A stretch of DNA of 43,591 nucleotides. It comes from a virus. This document shows, one piece after another, positions 6,788 through 39,792 of the stretch. Made by a program: the position numbers and the translations under genes. Within the stretch, counting starts at the first letter, position 1. Every line of letters starts with the position of its first letter. Location of the stretch: positions 1-43,591 of the IMG/VR virus record IMGVR_UViG_3300028612_002230; one strand, given 5' to 3'. Below the pieces are notes generated by a model. The model searched no databases and was not told where the DNA came from. It worked only from the letters and a program-made list of their open reading frames with translations.

Positions 6788-9091
6788 TTAAAATCTCCGT
6801 CCCTTTCTTCTATCATTTATCTTAGATCTACTTAGATGCCTAAAACTTCTTTTACTTTCTGAAGCCTTTGACATTCTTTCGTTTGTTTCAAGATCTAAAT
6901 CTGGCGGTTCTCCTCGTAAATAATTACCATGTGCAAAAACAGGCATTCCGTCCTGATAATAAACAGGAACAGGCCCTCTTATATCAGACATTTCTCTTCT
7001 CCATCCCGGTATAGCAGTAGTTAATGGTAAACCTTCTTCAACTAATTCAGCTGATACATCAGATTCTCTTTTTAAGAATATTGAATTATTCATCATCCAC
7101 CCATGCGTTGCCAAAAGAAACGCATCAAGTCTATGGTCTAACCCACCTTTTACTGTTGATGCGTAAACCTCACCAGTTTTTCCAATTCTATCTACTATAT
7201 AACCGCGCATTTGTCCAATTAACCTAGTTTCTTCGTCTTCCATTACAGCTCCAGTTTTATCCACAGCAGGTATAATATATTTTCCAGTTTCGTTTAATAA
7301 TTGAGCATTCTTAACCATAACATTTTTTGTTAAAGATTTGCTGGCTATGCCTGTTACTTTATCTATAATTTCAGTATTACCTCCCATATCTACTGCTGTC
7401 ATTTTATCTATCATATGCTTCAGTCCCGTACACTTGGTACCCATAGGACCTTTTCCTTTTTCTAGGGAAAGTCTTAACTGTTCATAATTTGACTCCCCAT
7501 GACCTTTATCAAAAGCCATATAAGAAAAGCTTATTTTCTTCATCATTTTTAATATAAATTCTACTGCTCCTAAATTAGTATACTCAGCTGACTCAATATT
7601 ATCGGCAAAATATAGTCGTAGTACACCTGATTTAGTAACAGGATCAATTGTTCCTCCACTAGCTACTTCCCACATCCCGGCGTTAAATGGGACTATTAAC
7701 TCCGGGTCCATCAAGTACTCCAAAACTACTGCCTGTACTCCATGTACAGATTCGTTCCAATCTACTCCAAGCATATAATGATTATTAGGATTATATTTTA
7801 AATCTGAATAATTATAAACATACAAATTAGAATCTATATGATTATTTTTAAAAACACCTTCAGCAGGGCTTCCAAATTCTGCTAAATACTCTCTTTCAAA
7901 CTGAGATAATGTTGTTACTGCTTTTATATCCCGTTCCATATCTGAGGTCCATTGCGGACTTAGCATAGACGTATAATGGTGTTCACTATACGACATAGAT
8001 TTGGCATTTTTACTTACCTGATAAAAAAACTCTCTTCTACCTGACGGAGTTCCAGAAACAGTTAATGTAGTATCAGTAAAACTAGTTGAAATAGGTAAAA
8101 CTGCCTCAATTAACATATCATTTGGTATAGAATCTACTTCATCAATATACATATCGTGAGCAGAATTATGAACTAAAAATCCACCAGAATGCACACCACT
8201 AACTTTATATCCTGATTTATTTTCATCAACTTCATTAAATGCTATGAAGTTATGATGTGGAGCAACTGTCATATCATAAGTCTCTGATTTTCCTACTCTT
8301 TTAACTTGTTTAACTCTAGCCCAATATAGCTCTCCAGTTGGATGTACGACTCCAATAAATTCTCCGGTACCGTCCAGTTCAGCTGTTTTTATTTCATTTA
8401 AAGGTGTCCATCCCTTATAGGCTAATGCTAATTTATGATTCTCTGTACATCTAATCTTCCTATCCGTAGTCGTAATAAGTTCATAAATATCCTGAACTCC
8501 ATTCTTATGAATATCAGTTACTTTCCCATAAAACATTTCAGGTTCGCCTTCATCATCTTGTTTAATTGATTTCACAAAATCCCCAACCTTTATCTCTGAA
8601 ATCTGTTTTGCCTCCAAATCCCACATTATAACTCTAGTGTTTCCGGGAAAACATTTACCACGAACAGAATTGTTACCAACAAATCCCATTATAATGGATC
8701 CGTTACTAAATCTAATTTCCCAAGGTCTCATTCGGGTTCGTTCTATGGACAGGGAAACCTCAGGAGAATCTTTTACCATCCTCCCAATCAAATCAAATAT
8801 AGTTTGAATCTGAGAATCAAAGCCTGCTACTAATAAAACTTGCCTATCCGCATTAGTGTATGCTTTCCAAATAGCTTCTATACCAATAACCACCGTTTTA
8901 CCTGTTCTTCTTCCAAGTCTAAGAATTCGTTTAAGACTCATGTCTTTCAATATAGCTCTCTGATAAGGTCTTAGTATTAAAGGTTTAGTCGGATCTGAAG
9001 GAGACCGTAGGTATGCCTCTGCAAAATAAGCAGGATCAGCTAAAAGCTTAGCTTCTATAAGTTCATCTTCTGTTAATTTTAAATTTTGCAC
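6788..9091 (-). CDS. terL: Terminase large subunit interrupted by a mini-intein
   Basis: This is the DNA-packaging motor: an ATPase that docks on the portal and a nuclease that cuts the concatemer. Walker A is GRRTGKT at residues 60-66. Walker B, MYIDEVD, lies at 314-320 in the precursor. The RNase H-like nuclease part shows candidate acidic residues in MLGVDWN, MAFDKGHGE and GLDHRLDAF. A 163-residue intein (147-309) sits just before Walker B; removal leaves about 604 residues, a normal terminase length. The start is GTG at 9091, with AGGAAG upstream. It overlaps by 13 bases the gene for a free-standing intein-like protein. The intein must splice for ATPase function, since it separates Walker A from Walker B. 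Confidence 0.9.
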   Translation of the reverse strand: MQNLKLTEDELIEAKLLADPAYFAEAYLRSPSDPTKPLILRPYQRAILKDMSLKRILRLGRRTGKTVVIGIEAIWKAYTNADRQVLLVAGFDSQIQTIFDLIGRMVKDSPEVSLSIERTRMRPWEIRFSNGSIIMGFVGNNSVRGKCFPGNTRVIMWDLEAKQISEIKVGDFVKSIKQDDEGEPEMFYGKVTDIHKNGVQDIYELITTTDRKIRCTENHKLALAYKGWTPLNEIKTAELDGTGEFIGVVHPTGELYWARVKQVKRVGKSETYDMTVAPHHNFIAFNEVDENKSGYKVSGVHSGGFLVHNSAHDMYIDEVDSIPNDMLIEAVLPISTSFTDTTLTVSGTPSGRREFFYQVSKNAKSMSYSEHHYTSMLSPQWTSDMERDIKAVTTLSQFEREYLAEFGSPAEGVFKNNHIDSNLYVYNYSDLKYNPNNHYMLGVDWNESVHGVQAVVLEYLMDPELIVPFNAGMWEVASGGTIDPVTKSGVLRLYFADNIESAEYTNLGAVEFILKMMKKISFSYMAFDKGHGESNYEQLRLSLEKGKGPMGTKCTGLKHMIDKMTAVDMGGNTEIIDKVTGIASKSLTKNVMVKNAQLLNETGKYIIPAVDKTGAVMEDEETRLIGQMRGYIVDRIGKTGEVYASTVKGGLDHRLDAFLLATHGWMMNNSIFLKRESDVSAELVEEGLPLTTAIPGWRREMSDIRGPVPVYYQDGMPVFAHGNYLRGEPPDLDLETNERMSKASESKRSFRHLSRSKINDRRKGRRF
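8165..8653 (-). other. Mini-intein within terminase (163 residues)
   Basis: The insert begins with Cys (CFPGNTRVIM) and ends VHN before Ser of the C-extein (SAHDMYIDEVD). Block B is seen as RCTENHKL with its conserved His, and block F as SETYDMTVAPHHNFIAFNE. The spliced junction reads VRGK-SAHDMYIDEVD, restoring a continuous terminase sequence. At 163 residues there is no room for a homing endonuclease, so this is a Hint-only mini-intein that cannot spread by itself. Splice residues Cys1, the His of block B, His-Asn at the end and Ser+1 are all present, so it is probably active. Confidence 0.88.
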
Positions 9092-28345: not shown

Positions 28346-29194
28346 TTAATTATCGTCTGAATCTTCTTCTAAATCTTCTGTTTTCTTATTTCTAGATAAT
28401 TCACACTCTTCGATGGTTTTAGATGAATCATAAATAAATTGATAATCATTATCATCTAACAAATTATATATTCGTTCAACGGGTATAAAATACCCCATGT
28501 GAGTAATTGCATCTGCACTAAATCCCATGGCCTGCACAGATATTCTAGAAGGAATACCTATATACTCATACGTTTTACGCTCTCCAGACCATCTATAAAC
28601 CGCCCCACCTGAATTTCCAAAAATAGTAGGAGCAGAAGACATCCAATATTTATAATGATCTATTTCATCATCCATATAAGAAATATGACCGTCAGAAGCA
28701 ATAGGGGGATGCCCTAAAGATGCTCCAACTGCAAAAACTTTATCAAAGATATGCACAGATTTAACCTCACTTAACGGAAATAACTTAGCTACATGATCAG
28801 CTATATTCTCCTCATCTCTAATTTTTAGCAATGCCCAGTCTTGTCCACCTTCTACATCAGAATAAGCTACAATATCTGCTTCCACTGCAAAAGAACCAAC
28901 ACAATGAGAATAGTTATTGTATTTAAAAAACTCAACATAAACTGTATCAATAACCTCTTTATCCACTTTCTTCTTAACAATAGGATCCCATTTTTTCTCT
29001 ACATTAATACAATCCGCTATAACATGATGGTTTGTAATAACATAAGTGTAAACATCATCACCATTTTTTTTAGAATAAACAACTGTTCCGCTTCCGCCCG
29101 CCTTTTTAGTACGAACTCGAACTGTAGGATAAAACATTTCTTCGTGTTTTTGTTTTATTTCCTTAGATACTTTCATAATAGTTGTCCCCCCCAT
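28346..29194 (-). CDS. Trypsin-like serine protease
   Basis: The triad can be read as His57 (VITNHHVIADC), Asp119 (GGQDWALLKI) and Ser195 (IFGNSGGAVY), with the trypsin/HtrA order and spacing. There is no signal peptide, collagen or PDZ part, unlike the fibre-borne protease at 34.8-37.6 kb, so it is probably made for use in the cell or packed as a separate protein. Two starts are possible: 29,194, or the ATG six codons later at 29,176 (MKVSKEIK); neither has a strong ribosome site. An acidic tail follows the domain. Target unknown. Confidence 0.75.
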   Translation of the reverse strand: MGGTTIMKVSKEIKQKHEEMFYPTVRVRTKKAGGSGTVVYSKKNGDDVYTYVITNHHVIADCINVEKKWDPIVKKKVDKEVIDTVYVEFFKYNNYSHCVGSFAVEADIVAYSDVEGGQDWALLKIRDEENIADHVAKLFPLSEVKSVHIFDKVFAVGASLGHPPIASDGHISYMDDEIDHYKYWMSSAPTIFGNSGGAVYRWSGERKTYEYIGIPSRISVQAMGFSADAITHMGYFIPVERIYNLLDDNDYQFIYDSSKTIEECELSRNKKTEDLEEDSDDN

Positions 29195-29724: not shown

Positions 29725-29793
29725 CTATTTATTCCCCTTTTTACGGATAATTTTAAGTTTTCTATTTACTTCTTTTAAAGATTGCTTATTCAT
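29725..29793 (-). CDS. Possible 22-residue basic peptide
   Basis: The ATG overlaps the stop of the 1285-residue adhesin as TAATG and opens a short frame, MNKQSLKEVNRKLKIIRKKG plus two residues. Eight of its 22 residues are Lys or Arg. Coupled start and strong charge argue for it, the small size against it. No function can be suggested. Confidence 0.3.
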   Translation of the reverse strand: MNKQSLKEVNRKLKIIRKKGNK

Positions 29794-32700
29794 TAATAAA
29801 TCGGAGGTCCTGAACAAGTATTAACTGGTGCCAAATCACTAGGAGTCATTCCAACACAGCCTCCACATGTTATTGAGGTAATGGCTCCAAGATCTGGACA
29901 CTTTCCTCCAGTAGCCTCAGTGCATGCCTTTAACTCCCAGTGGCCATTATATTGCCACATCTTCATTTCTGCATTACTAACAACCGCATCACCGGTTACA
30001 TCCTCTACAGAATTACATCCCACTGCTGAACAGTATTCATCAACTGTTGCTGCCGCCCAATCTCCTACAGGATTTATATGGCTAGGAGTAATGCTATGTC
30101 CCCCTCTGCTCCACTGGGTTTGCCCTGTCGAAGAATTCGTTATTAAATCAACATTGTCATTCAACACACAACGAATAGAACCTCCTACATGTTCATCGTG
30201 CGAGCTAAGCAAAACACCAAGCCCTAAAGATTCTAGATAATTTATGTCTCTGCTATATATGCCACCCGGCGGGTCTGCTGGAAATACTGCTCCTTCAACA
30301 GTACCATCACAACCATAAGTTACAAATTCTGCTCCTTCAACAGTACCATGAAAATCATTGCCACTTGAGTCGTCTGCATTTCCATCAAATTTCCAATATC
30401 CCTGCAAGTCAGACCCCCAATTAGATATATCATTTGGTGTTCCACTATTATAAAGGGTGTCTACATCTTGCTCAGTAAGTACTGTATCAAACCAAGCGAA
30501 TTCTTTAATATCTCCTTCAAAATCTTGGTTCCATGTACCGGTTGAACCATAATCCTGCCCATCAGGGGAACCTGCACTACCAATCACTAAATCATCCCAA
30601 AATCCATAATGGATTGACCCAACCTGCATATCCGGAGTGGCCTCAACACTATCCACCCAAAGTCTACTATTATCAATATGAACATCATCAAGGGTCACCA
30701 CATAATGATGCCAATTTCCATCGTATTGTTTAGAATTGCCACCCCAAATATCCCAGGTACACCATGAGGTATTTTTCACACGCAACATCGGTGCCCCAGG
30801 GTTTCCCATTGGGCTAGCACCGAAGGCGAAAAAGCCTCTGTCCTTGTCTCCATGGGAAAAGATTGCCATATTTTTGTCAACGGTAGATCTTGCCCAGAAA
30901 GAATAAGTAGATGGCTGTCTGTCATCATCGGCAGTAAATGTAACCCTGTCTCCAAAACCAGCAAATGAAAGAGGGCCAATGGGCGGTACGTTTGCTGCTG
31001 AGTTTTCTACATTTCCATCAAATCTCCAGTATCCCTTCAGGTCGCTCCCCCAAGCCGCTAGATTAGTTGGGACCCCACCATTATAAATGGTTGTTACATT
31101 TGCATCAGAAATTACTGAATCAAACCACGCGAAGTCTTTAATTTCTCCTTCGAAATCATAGGGATGCGTCCCAGATGGCTCTGCGCTACCAATGGTTAAA
31201 CCGGAACTATAATCCTCAAAACTTGCAGAACCCTCGGAAGAATAGATATCCCATTCGACATCATCCATCCAAAATCTAGTATTATTTATACTATAGTGGT
31301 CAAAGGTCACTACATAATGATGCCACTCTCCATCGTGTTGGGAGGGGGAGTTACTTGCTTCAAACTGGATAAGTGAATTACTCCCTCCAAATAGTACGTT
31401 GCCATTCCATTGGAATAAAAGCACACCCTTCCACTCCTCGCCATGAGAGAATATACAAGTTATATCAGGAGAAGTAAATCTTGCCCAAAAGGACCAAGAA
31501 CTCACCTGGTTTGTATCATTGCATGTAGTTGTAACCCTGTCTCCAGAACCATCAAATGCAAGCCAATTATTGGGCTCCACAACAACCGATTCATCCTTTG
31601 GTGACCAGATCACAGAGTTCTCTTTTAGTGGCCATAGGTACCCTGCTGCTGACCGCCATCCTGCTGCTCTTATGTTAAAATTCCATTCGTCTCCTGTGAA
31701 TCCCCCAGCATAGCCCTCTTGAATATCCCAGTATCTTAGTCCTTCTTTTCTCATTTTTTGATCTACATCTTCGCTATCCCCTCTTCCTGGGAAGTCGAAG
31801 AGATCAAGGTCGTCGGGGTCCATTCCTCCCCATTCTAATTCTAATCGTTTCCAATCCTCGTGGGTTGAAACATGCCAACCTATAGGGCATACATCAGGTA
31901 ACAGTGCTGTAAGTCCATTATATATAAGACCATATTGCAGCATGTTATCATGGTTTTGCCAGTGATCGGAACCATAGCCAGGCTCCACAAATGCAGGAAA
32001 GGCTAGATTTGACCACATATAATTAAAAGAATCACCGACCGGTAACTCCAATATACTTGTAACCATATCATCATGTAAATGTTTTGTTCGTAGATTTCTG
32101 GTAAACCAGACATTTGGCATCGTTGCACCATCACCTGCAAAATCATGAAACGGATAGTAATTTCCATCCGCATCCTGCGCATGCACTTCGAATGCTGGTA
32201 AAGATACATAAGGCAGACCGTCTCCCTCCGTATAAAAATATTGATCTGTTAATGGTGTTTCGTAGGCTACTCTTGCCAGACCTCTATTAAAACAAGGAGA
32301 AGCCCGTCCACCCCAATGTTCTTCTGAAGCTGTGGCTCCATCTGTTAGTAGGTTTATAGTTATACCACAATCTTTTCCATAATGCTGATTTGCATAAGAA
32401 GCACATGGGCATAAATTCATTACCTCAGGATTTCTAAAAGTTACAGTGGCATTTCCCGCCTCAGACCAACCATAAAATAGAGGGTCTATTCCATTATCTT
32501 TTAGAGGTGCGTGATCTGCATTCAAATTTAGGTTCCAAATATCACAGTTGCTCTCGCTAGAGCCCAGATCTGAACTACCAATGAGATTGCCAGAATCTAT
32601 TAGATATATTTGATGTCCTTCAGGCGGAACATGAAAAGCTCTTATATCAGAGGAAAGAGCTCCACTATAATTAAATACATGCACAGGATCTACCCCTAAT

Positions 32701-33650
32701 ATATCATAACCAGATATATTACTTATATCATATTGATATGCATAGTTGAGATACCTATTCTGAATCATTGCTGTTTCTTCATCTGGAGATATATTCAGCC
32801 CTGGACTATTTCCTGCATTTAATAAACTGCTACCATCATGATTTTGTAATATACCCGTTTCATATCTCTGATTATTTGATTGTGCTAAATCATCAGGTAT
32901 CTTAAAATCTGAAGTATAAAACATATGTATACGCATAGCATTATCGTCAGTTTCTAAAAAAATCCAAAGACGAGTCCCTTCGTTATTAAATTGTGCACCT
33001 AATACTTTATAGTCCGAGCTATTATATGAGTAAGCGGATATTGCTCCGTCGGTAAAACCTAAAAGGTCACCTGCTGTTGTCAATTCATTAACCTGTATAC
33101 TCCATTGGTGTACTATTAATATTTTATTTCCATTATCTATTATCTGAAAGTTCCATCTGTTTGACATATTTTTTGTTCCGGCATCAGTAAATGTCGAGTT
33201 TAAATCCCAGGGAGTGCTTAGATCAAGTTGCTGCAGCAATCCCCCACCCCGTATAAGGTACAATCTACTACCATCTTCTATACCGTCAATATTTACTGCC
33301 CATTGAAAAGACTGGATACTGCCATCTGTAATGGCATTTGCCCCAATTGTCATACCAGTTATACTTGCTCCATCTATATTCCAATTATAAAAAGCCCAAT
33401 CTGGGTCACAACCAGCAAGCTCTGAACAATCAGTAGCACCATAGTATTCGCCAGGAGTACAGTTCAATTTAACTTCAGGTGCTTTAGCCATCCTGGATAT
33501 ACTACATGCACATTGTGGATAATAACAGTTAGACCATTGAGCCGTTTCCCATTCTGCGTAAGACCTATTAAATTGACCAACATAGTCCCAATTATTAGAC
33601 TCCTGGTATGTTGTAAGACTTGTCTTACCTACGCCTATGACGTTTAACAT
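29793..33650 (-). CDS. Large adhesin with FISUMP and two LamG-type domains
   Basis: The 1285-residue protein has an N-terminal Cys-containing part (a diverged Cys cassette at 64-85), a beta-propeller-like or repeat body to about 430, then a FISUMP-type region: NVWFTRNLRTKHL near 513, CPIGWHVSTHEDWKRL near 588, and VIWSPKDES near 685. Two LamG/concanavalin-like domains follow (about 694-885 and 892-1090), each with GEWHHYVVTFD or GNWHHYVVTLD and ending with L-x-GYW-x-FDGN. The closing FISUMP piece, VGGSIRCVLND, lies near 1160. LamG and FISUMP domains are extracellular, often carbohydrate-linked, so this is a likely receptor-binding fibre or spike. AAGGAG precedes the ATG. Confidence 0.75.
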   Translation of the reverse strand: MLNVIGVGKTSLTTYQESNNWDYVGQFNRSYAEWETAQWSNCYYPQCACSISRMAKAPEVKLNCTPGEYYGATDCSELAGCDPDWAFYNWNIDGASITGMTIGANAITDGSIQSFQWAVNIDGIEDGSRLYLIRGGGLLQQLDLSTPWDLNSTFTDAGTKNMSNRWNFQIIDNGNKILIVHQWSIQVNELTTAGDLLGFTDGAISAYSYNSSDYKVLGAQFNNEGTRLWIFLETDDNAMRIHMFYTSDFKIPDDLAQSNNQRYETGILQNHDGSSLLNAGNSPGLNISPDEETAMIQNRYLNYAYQYDISNISGYDILGVDPVHVFNYSGALSSDIRAFHVPPEGHQIYLIDSGNLIGSSDLGSSESNCDIWNLNLNADHAPLKDNGIDPLFYGWSEAGNATVTFRNPEVMNLCPCASYANQHYGKDCGITINLLTDGATASEEHWGGRASPCFNRGLARVAYETPLTDQYFYTEGDGLPYVSLPAFEVHAQDADGNYYPFHDFAGDGATMPNVWFTRNLRTKHLHDDMVTSILELPVGDSFNYMWSNLAFPAFVEPGYGSDHWQNHDNMLQYGLIYNGLTALLPDVCPIGWHVSTHEDWKRLELEWGGMDPDDLDLFDFPGRGDSEDVDQKMRKEGLRYWDIQEGYAGGFTGDEWNFNIRAAGWRSAAGYLWPLKENSVIWSPKDESVVVEPNNWLAFDGSGDRVTTTCNDTNQVSSWSFWARFTSPDITCIFSHGEEWKGVLLFQWNGNVLFGGSNSLIQFEASNSPSQHDGEWHHYVVTFDHYSINNTRFWMDDVEWDIYSSEGSASFEDYSSGLTIGSAEPSGTHPYDFEGEIKDFAWFDSVISDANVTTIYNGGVPTNLAAWGSDLKGYWRFDGNVENSAANVPPIGPLSFAGFGDRVTFTADDDRQPSTYSFWARSTVDKNMAIFSHGDKDRGFFAFGASPMGNPGAPMLRVKNTSWCTWDIWGGNSKQYDGNWHHYVVTLDDVHIDNSRLWVDSVEATPDMQVGSIHYGFWDDLVIGSAGSPDGQDYGSTGTWNQDFEGDIKEFAWFDTVLTEQDVDTLYNSGTPNDISNWGSDLQGYWKFDGNADDSSGNDFHGTVEGAEFVTYGCDGTVEGAVFPADPPGGIYSRDINYLESLGLGVLLSSHDEHVGGSIRCVLNDNVDLITNSSTGQTQWSRGGHSITPSHINPVGDWAAATVDEYCSAVGCNSVEDVTGDAVVSNAEMKMWQYNGHWELKACTEATGGKCPDLGAITSITCGGCVGMTPSDLAPVNTCSGPPIY

Positions 33651-37937: not shown

Positions 37938-38807
37938 CTAAGTAGCAAACCCACTTCCTAACATTTTTTCTTCCATAGAACTTTGAAGTTCTTTTTGAGC
38001 TTGCTCATAGCTTAAACCTTGGTCCATCTTTTCTTTAAAGTCTATTTCTGGTATAGTAAGATTCCGTATACCCAAAGAAAATCTTAAAGTTTTTGTATAT
38101 AAACAATGAAAATAATATTTTCCATCTACCCTAAGACCTGTTTTACCATCAAGTAACCCTTGAGGAACATTCATTATATTTAAGCTCCAGCCTTTTGGTT
38201 CTTTCTTATAAATTACTTTATCATTTTCTTGATCATAAACCCCCCAAACTGAACTATCCTCATCTGTATTATAAACAAAATACCATCTAAACTCAGAACC
38301 ACTAATATGATTTGTATGCCATCCCATATATCCATTTAATCCATTGTATTCCTTGTATATATGAGGTAAACACGAAAAACTATATTGATCTGATTCTGTA
38401 ACCTGAGGGAGATCTCTTAATTTATTAAATCTTTCCAAAAGAGAAGACATAAAACTCTCTTTACACAACCACTCTACTGATTTATCCTTACGATTTTCCA
38501 ATTCCACTAACATTTTACAAATTTGTTCAGAAAAATAATAACAAGAATCAGTCCTAGCATTACCTATCATTGGAGTTACATTAGGTAATAATTTTCGCAA
38601 GGCATCTTCACTGCATCTTTCTTCTGCCGACAGACCGTCAAATACAGGCGTAGGAACAGGTAATCGTGATAATTTTCCATCAACTTTTTGAAATCTAGCC
38701 GATTGCCAATAAGGATATACTTTAACTTTTCCTGAAATTATAGGATTAATATATAAATTAACAATTTCATCTAAAACATCTTTATATGGTTCTAATAATT
38801 CTACCAT
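37938..38807 (-). CDS. 2OG-Fe(II) oxygenase-like protein
   Basis: The 289-residue protein has the order of the double-stranded beta-helix oxygenases: GYMGWHTNHISGSEF (His164, with Asn at the usual Asp position 166), then GSEFRWYFVYNT, then a far strand with YYFHCLYTKTLRFSLGIR (His234, Arg242). The His-x-Asp...His triad is thus H-x-N...H; the Asn may weaken or alter iron binding. It lies between collagen-like fibre genes. Prolyl and lysyl hydroxylases of collagen belong to this superfamily, so hydroxylation of the G-x-y shafts is a natural guess, but the match is from pattern only. Ribosome site AAGG. Confidence 0.55.
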   Translation of the reverse strand: MVELLEPYKDVLDEIVNLYINPIISGKVKVYPYWQSARFQKVDGKLSRLPVPTPVFDGLSAEERCSEDALRKLLPNVTPMIGNARTDSCYYFSEQICKMLVELENRKDKSVEWLCKESFMSSLLERFNKLRDLPQVTESDQYSFSCLPHIYKEYNGLNGYMGWHTNHISGSEFRWYFVYNTDEDSSVWGVYDQENDKVIYKKEPKGWSLNIMNVPQGLLDGKTGLRVDGKYYFHCLYTKTLRFSLGIRNLTIPEIDFKEKMDQGLSYEQAQKELQSSMEEKMLGSGFAT

Positions 38808-38813
38808 ACTGCC

Positions 38814-39137
38814 TTATGCCTCCAGGATAGCAATCATCTCTTCAATCTTAACTTGGTCTTCTGGATGTTCTCCAGTTGGCCCCGTTTTTTCTCTTATATC
38901 ATTTATTTCGTCTCCCTTGGTTTTTCCAATATCCTTCGCACCTGTCGAACCAGGTGGTAACTCCTGCCCATCACTAATAGCTGTCAACGTTACAGGTACA
39001 GGAGTGTTATTATCAGTTAAATCTCCAAGACCTTCTAAATAATTTAAAATTAATATTTGTCTAGATGATCCCTGACTATTCAAAAAATTAATATTGGGTA
39101 CTAGAGCTTCAAGTTGAGCTCTCTTTACTTGTGACAT
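38814..39137 (-). CDS. Unknown protein, 107 residues
   Basis: A helical N-terminal part (to about 40) is followed by a beta strand and a long acidic, Gly/Lys-rich disordered stretch with GSTGAKDIGKTKGDE and a GPTG-like segment, then a short C-terminal helix. It may be a fibre accessory or adaptor. AGGAG precedes the ATG. No family is recognised. Confidence 0.4.
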   Translation of the reverse strand: MSQVKRAQLEALVPNINFLNSQGSSRQILILNYLEGLGDLTDNNTPVPVTLTAISDGQELPPGSTGAKDIGKTKGDEINDIREKTGPTGEHPEDQVKIEEMIAILEA

Positions 39138-39162: not shown

Positions 39163-39792
39163 TTAAGCACTGACATAATTAAAAGGTACTGAATAAAGCT
39201 GGTCAAGTGTTAGACCCGTAACTGTATCAAAAAATCCACTTGCACCCTTGAAAGTCCAAGAAAGGTAACATATTTGTGTAGGATTCATATTTCCACCCAT
39301 CTGCATAATTCTCCTAACAGTCACACCATTACTATCTGCTTCCCAATCATGCTTCGTATTACCTAAATGACTAACAAATAACTCATCAAAGTTATATGCT
39401 GTACATATCTGTGATATGCAACCGGTATGCATATCATGCCATTCATAGGTCCAACTTATAGTCAGATCATAGAAATATGACCACCAACTAAACTCACAAC
39501 ATCCGTCCCACCATTGGTCAGTTAAATTTGCATTTTGAAGATTTATCCAGGCACCTCCAGTACTATTTTCATGAGTTTGTCCCATCTTGTATCTTGCTCG
39601 ACAATCTTCATCGTTATTTCCATCTGGATCTGAACAAGTAGTATTTACCAGTCTGGCATCTTTAATTCTATAATTACTCATCTTACAATTAATAGAATCA
39701 GGATGAATTGTTCCTAAAGAAGAGGAAGTAGTATCATTGCCACTTCCTGCAACTGCCTTTCTTAATTTCCCTAAACTGCATTGATGTGCCAT
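39163..39792 (-). CDS. Cys- and Trp-rich virion-type protein
   Basis: The 209-residue protein is rich in Trp, Cys and aromatic residues (for example QWWDGCCEFSWWSYFYDLTISWTYEW). Pairs of Cys across the chain (C-x10-C at 53-64, CC near 98, C-x4-C near 125) suggest disulphides. The first pair resembles a degenerate Cys cassette lacking the Trp. AGGAG precedes the ATG. The context of fibre genes makes a tip or receptor-binding protein plausible. Confidence 0.45.
   Translation of the reverse strand: MAHQCSLGKLRKAVAGSGNDTTSSSLGTIHPDSINCKMSNYRIKDARLVNTTCSDPDGNNDEDCRARYKMGQTHENSTGGAWINLQNANLTDQWWDGCCEFSWWSYFYDLTISWTYEWHDMHTGCISQICTAYNFDELFVSHLGNTKHDWEADSNGVTVRRIMQMGGNMNPTQICYLSWTFKGASGFFDTVTGLTLDQLYSVPFNYVSA

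Follow-up and report, generated by a model that had tools for sequence, protein, structure and literature searches.

The gene considered here belongs to a marine phage and sits amid tail-fibre genes, some of them collagen-like, and the question that it raises is whether it encodes an Fe(II)/2-oxoglutarate (2OG) oxygenase and, if so, what such an enzyme would modify. It lies in a 43.6-kb virus record, the whole of which was analysed and is referred to below as the window; the phage packaging and tail genes are on the minus strand. In the order of transcription, a collagen-like fibre gene with an S74 domain is followed by genes for a 209-aa and a 107-aa protein, the oxygenase-like gene, a SelW/Rdx-like gene, a gene that combines collagen, trypsin-like and PDZ domains and another collagen-like fibre gene (Table 1). 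The oxygenase-like open reading frame begins with ATG, the stop codon of the upstream gene lies 6 bases before it, and GGAGG is found ~11 bases ahead of the ATG. Judging from this spacing, the tail-fibre genes and the oxygenase-like gene are probably co-transcribed or co-expressed. The first-pass annotation had described the gene as embedded among collagen-like fibre genes. Three such genes do flank it, but two non-collagen genes separate it from the S74 fibre gene and the SelW/Rdx-like gene intervenes on the other side.

Several other features of the window were noted. The SelW/Rdx-like protein has CEQS where a redox motif of CxxC or CxxU is expected. The presence of a protease-PDZ pair on the fibre shaft of the 943-aa protein looks unusual, and a second trypsin-like protein is encoded at 28346-29194. 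A 1285-aa protein (29793-33650) with laminin-G-type and Fib_succ_major domains is a possible adhesin, and a large-terminase-like gene (6788-9091) contains an intein (Hint/intein splicing domain, residues ~144-287).

Table 1. Positions of the oxygenase-like gene, its neighbours and its predicted functional elements in the window, and of partner genes in related loci.
Feature	Position	Strand	Remark
Collagen-like tail fibre that carries an S74 chaperone domain, 268 aa	39844..40650	(-)	
209-aa gene, without family match, possible virion protein	39163..39792	(-)	
107-aa gene directly upstream of oxygenase-like gene, without family match	38814..39137	(-)	
Oxygenase-like gene, 289 aa	37938..38807	(-)	HxN metal motif; 2OG-oxygenase fold (double-stranded beta-helix) predicted
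SelW/Rdx-like thioredoxin-fold protein, 79 aa	37682..37921	(-)	16 bases downstream of oxygenase-like gene
Collagen-like fibre with fused trypsin-like and PDZ domains, 943 aa	34812..37643	(-)	
Collagen-like fibre, 370 aa	33671..34783	(-)	
Predicted DSBH core, residues 147-250	38058..38369	(-)	window model; same strand order in L011
H164-T165-N166, proximal His and Asn at usual Asp/Glu place	38310..38318	(-)	invariant in 166 hits
H234, distal His	38106..38108	(-)	invariant in 166 hits
R242-x-S244, putative 2OG C5-carboxylate site	38076..38084	(-)	8 residues past distal His (9 in PHD2 and FTO)
C-terminal helical extension, residues 257-289	37941..38039	(-)	absent from most family members
YRMIDGxHR protein, examples	L073:5037-5423, L014:1716-2093, L137:4504-4866, L092:6234-6578, L087:5208-6284, others		

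The 289-aa protein contains both G162-W-H-T-N166 and F233-H-C-L-Y-T-K-T-L-R242-F-S-L-G246, which had been read as the His-x-Asp...His...Arg layout of 2OG oxygenases with Asn in the place of Asp. To place these motifs in a family, relatives were collected from IMG/VR and bacterial assemblies, which yielded 166 hits at 165 loci with 121 distinct domain sequences; three widening IMG/VR scans returned 17, 125 and 367 candidate stretches, at most 80 of each being taken into the family set. Six of the relatives are in bacterial assemblies and one is in a 595-kb phage record. The window protein matched family profile A7, in which it is itself included, with an E-value of 3.5e-33. W163, H164, N166, H234, R242, S244 and G246 (window numbering) are invariant in all 166 hits, and the residue that precedes H234 is W in 166 of 166 hits and F in the window protein. 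The invariance of these key residues argues that the two motifs did not arise by chance. It should be noted that conservation of W and H was partly selected for, because the search patterns contained them: the second and third viral scans, which supplied most loci, used GYMGWHT and WHC..., while the patterns of the first scan (YMGWHTNH) and of the bacterial scan ([YF]MGWHTN) also contained N. N166, R242, S244 and G246 are outside the patterns of the second and third scans. Asn is fixed at the Asp/Glu position in every member examined: HxN rather than HxD/E is found in all 166 hits and in the window protein, and relatives L053, L066 and L072 carry it as well. The Arg follows the distal His by 8 residues, inside the range of 8-11 expected for the Arg/Lys that binds 2OG.

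Neither the window protein nor the family alignments matched any 2OG family when searched against Pfam, PHROGs, NCBIfam and PDB sequences, so that the profile search proposed earlier as a check gave no support. Weak phmmer matches of the window protein to red fluorescent proteins were judged to be chance. The predicted structures, on the other hand, bear out the oxygenase-like fold. The AlphaFold2 model of the compact relative L011 (66 alignment rows; pLDDT 96.4, pTM 0.91) is a double-stranded beta-helix (DSBH) whose strands carry the conserved residues in the order found in 2OG oxygenases. Foldseek with this model returned 107 PDB matches at E <= 0.001, of which the best 50 were all Fe(II)/2OG prolyl hydroxylases, mostly mutually non-independent PHD2 entries together with a homologue from Trichoplax and the P4H of Pseudomonas putida. 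The TM-scores to these prolyl hydroxylases are only 0.4-0.5, which means that only the core superposes. The model of the window protein (51 rows) is weaker but consistent: its mean pLDDT is 73, high over most of the C-terminal half, with ten-residue means of 77-93 over residues 151-250 of the DSBH core that are lowest near an insertion at 213-232. Its strands are predicted at 159-164, 174-180, 186-192, 197-203, 206-212, 234-238 and 242-248, and the distal His stands at the start of strand 234-238. Foldseek matches to this model were weak, but 2OG oxygenases were numerous among them (FTO, NMAD-1, ALKBH7, YcfD, Ofd2 and viral AlkB/2OG proteins); an unrelated peptidase that ranked first in the PDB was judged to be a chance match. 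In an hhalign comparison with canonical phage 2OG oxygenases, the alignment was confined to the residues around HxN/HxE (P 0.0017, probability 15%), while nothing was aligned with two unrelated profiles, one for the Tfa domain and one for the DGxHR partner described below. Given that the L011 model is a DSBH and that its best 50 PDB matches are all prolyl hydroxylases, the prediction of a 2OG-oxygenase fold is well supported.

The genomic contexts of the relatives link the family to tail fibres. One branch, with 21 distinct sequences at 25 loci, carries a tail-fibre-assembly (Tfa) domain C-terminal to the oxygenase-like domain of the same protein, a fusion that maps to a single event on the tree. 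PF16778 (Phage_tail_APC) was matched in both fused proteins scanned, L015 and L107; L017 and L121, which are two of the 25 fused loci and come from one contig, retain just the initial portion of the Tfa domain, and PF16778 was not found in the window protein. L013, L014 and L073 have a Tfa or Tfa-like protein encoded by a separate, adjacent gene, with collagen-like fibre genes close by. Scoring of the neighbours with PHROGs turned up tail-fibre and tail-fibre-assembly families, among others, along with some genes for carbamoyltransferases and glycosyltransferases. What recurs beside the family is tail-fibre and tail-fibre-assembly genes in general, which is a broader link than that to collagen. 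The 209-aa protein encoded near the oxygenase-like gene in the window showed no homology to the neighbour of L020 when the two were compared.

Another partner is a protein of ~120 aa with the motif Y-R-M-I-D-G-x-H-R, which adjoins the family gene on either strand in 34 of the 165 loci, is fused to it in L087 and changes state 10 times on the tree; neither the window nor any of 70 control loci with Tfa genes contains it. Its profile gave a sub-threshold match (E 0.04) to SbnI, a ParB/Srx-like serine kinase. Four family members in bacterial assemblies (L087, L089, L090 and L091) have no obvious prophage context, and L091 is found among genes whose sequences resemble those of glycosyltransferases and aminotransferases.

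Taken together, we propose, with a probability of roughly 0.55, that the gene encodes a protein with a divergent PHD/P4H-like 2OG-oxygenase fold and an HxN metal site that modifies a tail-fibre or other virion protein during assembly. The protein would be made together with the tail-fibre gene products, would use iron and 2-oxoglutarate at the His-x-Asn...His site with its putative Arg-x-Ser 2OG-binding motif and may then modify a side chain of a virion protein, of the tail fibre or otherwise, in the course of fibre folding or assembly. In one branch of the family, a single polypeptide would combine the presumed oxygenase activity with the tail-fibre-assembly chaperone. The observations that the Tfa fusion is a single event, that the window protein itself is not fused to a chaperone and that a few bacterial relatives are found in non-phage contexts speak against this proposal, as do the absence of profile matches, the low TM-scores and the weaker window model.

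Catalytic activity of the family is not assured, because the canonical Asp/Glu is absent, and the fold may instead have been inactivated by the change of Asp to Asn and retained as a fibre-specific chaperone or structural factor. Dedicated chaperones are commonly needed by phage fibres, and tail-fibre-assembly chaperones are fused or adjacent in relatives, which, together with the replacement of HxD/E by HxN in every member, would fit such a role. A dead pocket, however, is expected to drift, whereas both His, the Arg, the Ser and the surrounding residues are invariant in 121 distinct sequences. Moreover, the missing acidic ligand does not settle the matter, as AspH lacks it, uses two His and is active, and even its single-His variants stay active (PMC10947486). 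We therefore regard a non-catalytic role as unlikely.

Less likely again is an oxygenase whose substrate is not a virion protein and might instead be a nucleic acid, a small metabolite, a sugar nucleotide or a glycan. The carbamoyltransferase and glycosyltransferase genes among the neighbours, the location of the bacterial L087 and L091 beside genes that, as read from their sequences, resemble those of sugar-modifying enzymes, and the matches of the window model to AlkB/FTO nucleic-acid demethylases are all consistent with such a substrate. The better model, that of L011, nevertheless matches protein prolyl hydroxylases first, and both the fusion to a fibre-assembly domain and the location inside fibre gene clusters argue for a virion substrate.

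The first-pass annotation had pointed to collagen, noting that the neighbouring shaft was rich in Lys at the Y position of its Gly-X-Y triplets, the site of lysyl hydroxylation in animals. This holds for the 268-aa fibre, in which Y is Lys in 16 of 41 counted triplets (GDK 9, GAK 4, GTK 3), but not for the two larger collagens of the window, one with Y-Lys in 3 of 82 triplets and the other without Lys among its commonest Y residues; the Y positions of the 943-aa protein are rich in Thr/Gln, and the fibres of the window have almost no Pro in Y. Phage collagens, furthermore, normally favour Lys/Arg in Y and Asp/Glu in X (PMC3368898). Collagen-like open reading frames were found in 14 of the 165 family loci and in none of the 70 control Tfa loci (Fisher p 0.006, relatedness ignored), an imperfect baseline because every control locus carries the same type of Tfa and the flanks available there are somewhat shorter. 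Among long records the counts were 7/30 for the family and 0/11 for the controls. Adjacency to collagen changes 7 times on the tree and thus recurs, but collagen lies within ~0.7 kb in only ~12 of the 165 family loci, and the 125- and 190-kb records of the nearest long relatives, L001 and L002, contain no collagen. With 14 of 165 loci, collagen genes do not consistently accompany the family, and acting on collagen is not its general purpose; a collagen substrate (Lys or Pro) in the window phage is possible but not favoured. A dedicated lysyl or prolyl hydroxylase of collagen-like shafts, for which the flanking genes, the recurrent adjacency, the Lys-rich fibre and the PHD/P4H-like fold might speak, is thus improbable, given ordinary Y-Lys usage, two Y-Lys-poor collagens, scarce Y-Pro and the lack of collagen at most loci.

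If a tail-fibre or other virion protein is indeed modified as proposed, a post-translational modification step would be built into phage fibre assembly. More tentatively, the family may be a widespread marine-phage group with a natural His-Asn-His iron site, in place of two His and one carboxylate, that hydroxylates or otherwise oxidises tail-fibre proteins during assembly. A family that is so far uncharacterised and has hundreds of candidate members in marine viruses gains a concrete predicted fold and a testable active site, and the invariant HxN for HxD/E would widen the known limits of 2OG-oxygenase metal sites. The Tfa fusion points to enzymatic modification of receptor-binding fibres, and our literature search found no described example of this, of an HxN oxygenase or of a hydroxylated phage fibre.

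Among known systems, PHD2/EGLN and bacterial P4H are the best fold matches and resemble the family in the helix-plus-DSBH layout and in how the two His and the Arg are ordered and spaced. H103-x-N105, H159 and R167 of L011 correspond to H313-x-D315, H374 and R383 of PHD2 (PMC10361942), with His-His-Arg spacings of 56/8 and 61/9, respectively. The family differs in having HxN instead of HxD, ~11-16% identity and no profile match. AlkB/FTO proteins, which the window model also matches, have an HxD...H...R...R layout, exemplified by H231-x-D233, H307, R316 and R322 of FTO, and H307-R316-R322 resembles H234-R242-R248 of the window protein (PMC4224472). The second Arg, however, is kept in only 91 of 166 family hits, and the PF13532 profile did not match the window protein. 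2OG-FeII oxygenases are common in cyanophages (PMC3037559), and canonical ones of marine T4-like phages co-occur in some family records, but PF13640 scores these and not the family, and the profile-profile link is confined to the HxE/HxN segment. Standard-type phage 2OG oxygenases were observed at L250:1210-1782 and L252:1186-1749 (both by PF13640) and L248:593-1162 (by alignment), with HxE (WHxEN) and not HxD.

Tfa chaperones (PF16778) occupy the same gene position as the family and, in one branch, the same chain, although the window protein is without the PF16778 domain. The collagen-modifying complex of P3H1, CRTAP and cyclophilin B offers an analogy, in that a hydroxylase is coupled to a fibrous-protein chaperone (PMC3900401); it belongs to the eukaryotic secretory pathway and no homology is claimed. 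The absence of an acidic iron ligand is shared with AspH, whose family profile (PF05118) gave no match; while AspH has two His only, the family strictly conserves an Asn at the vacated position.
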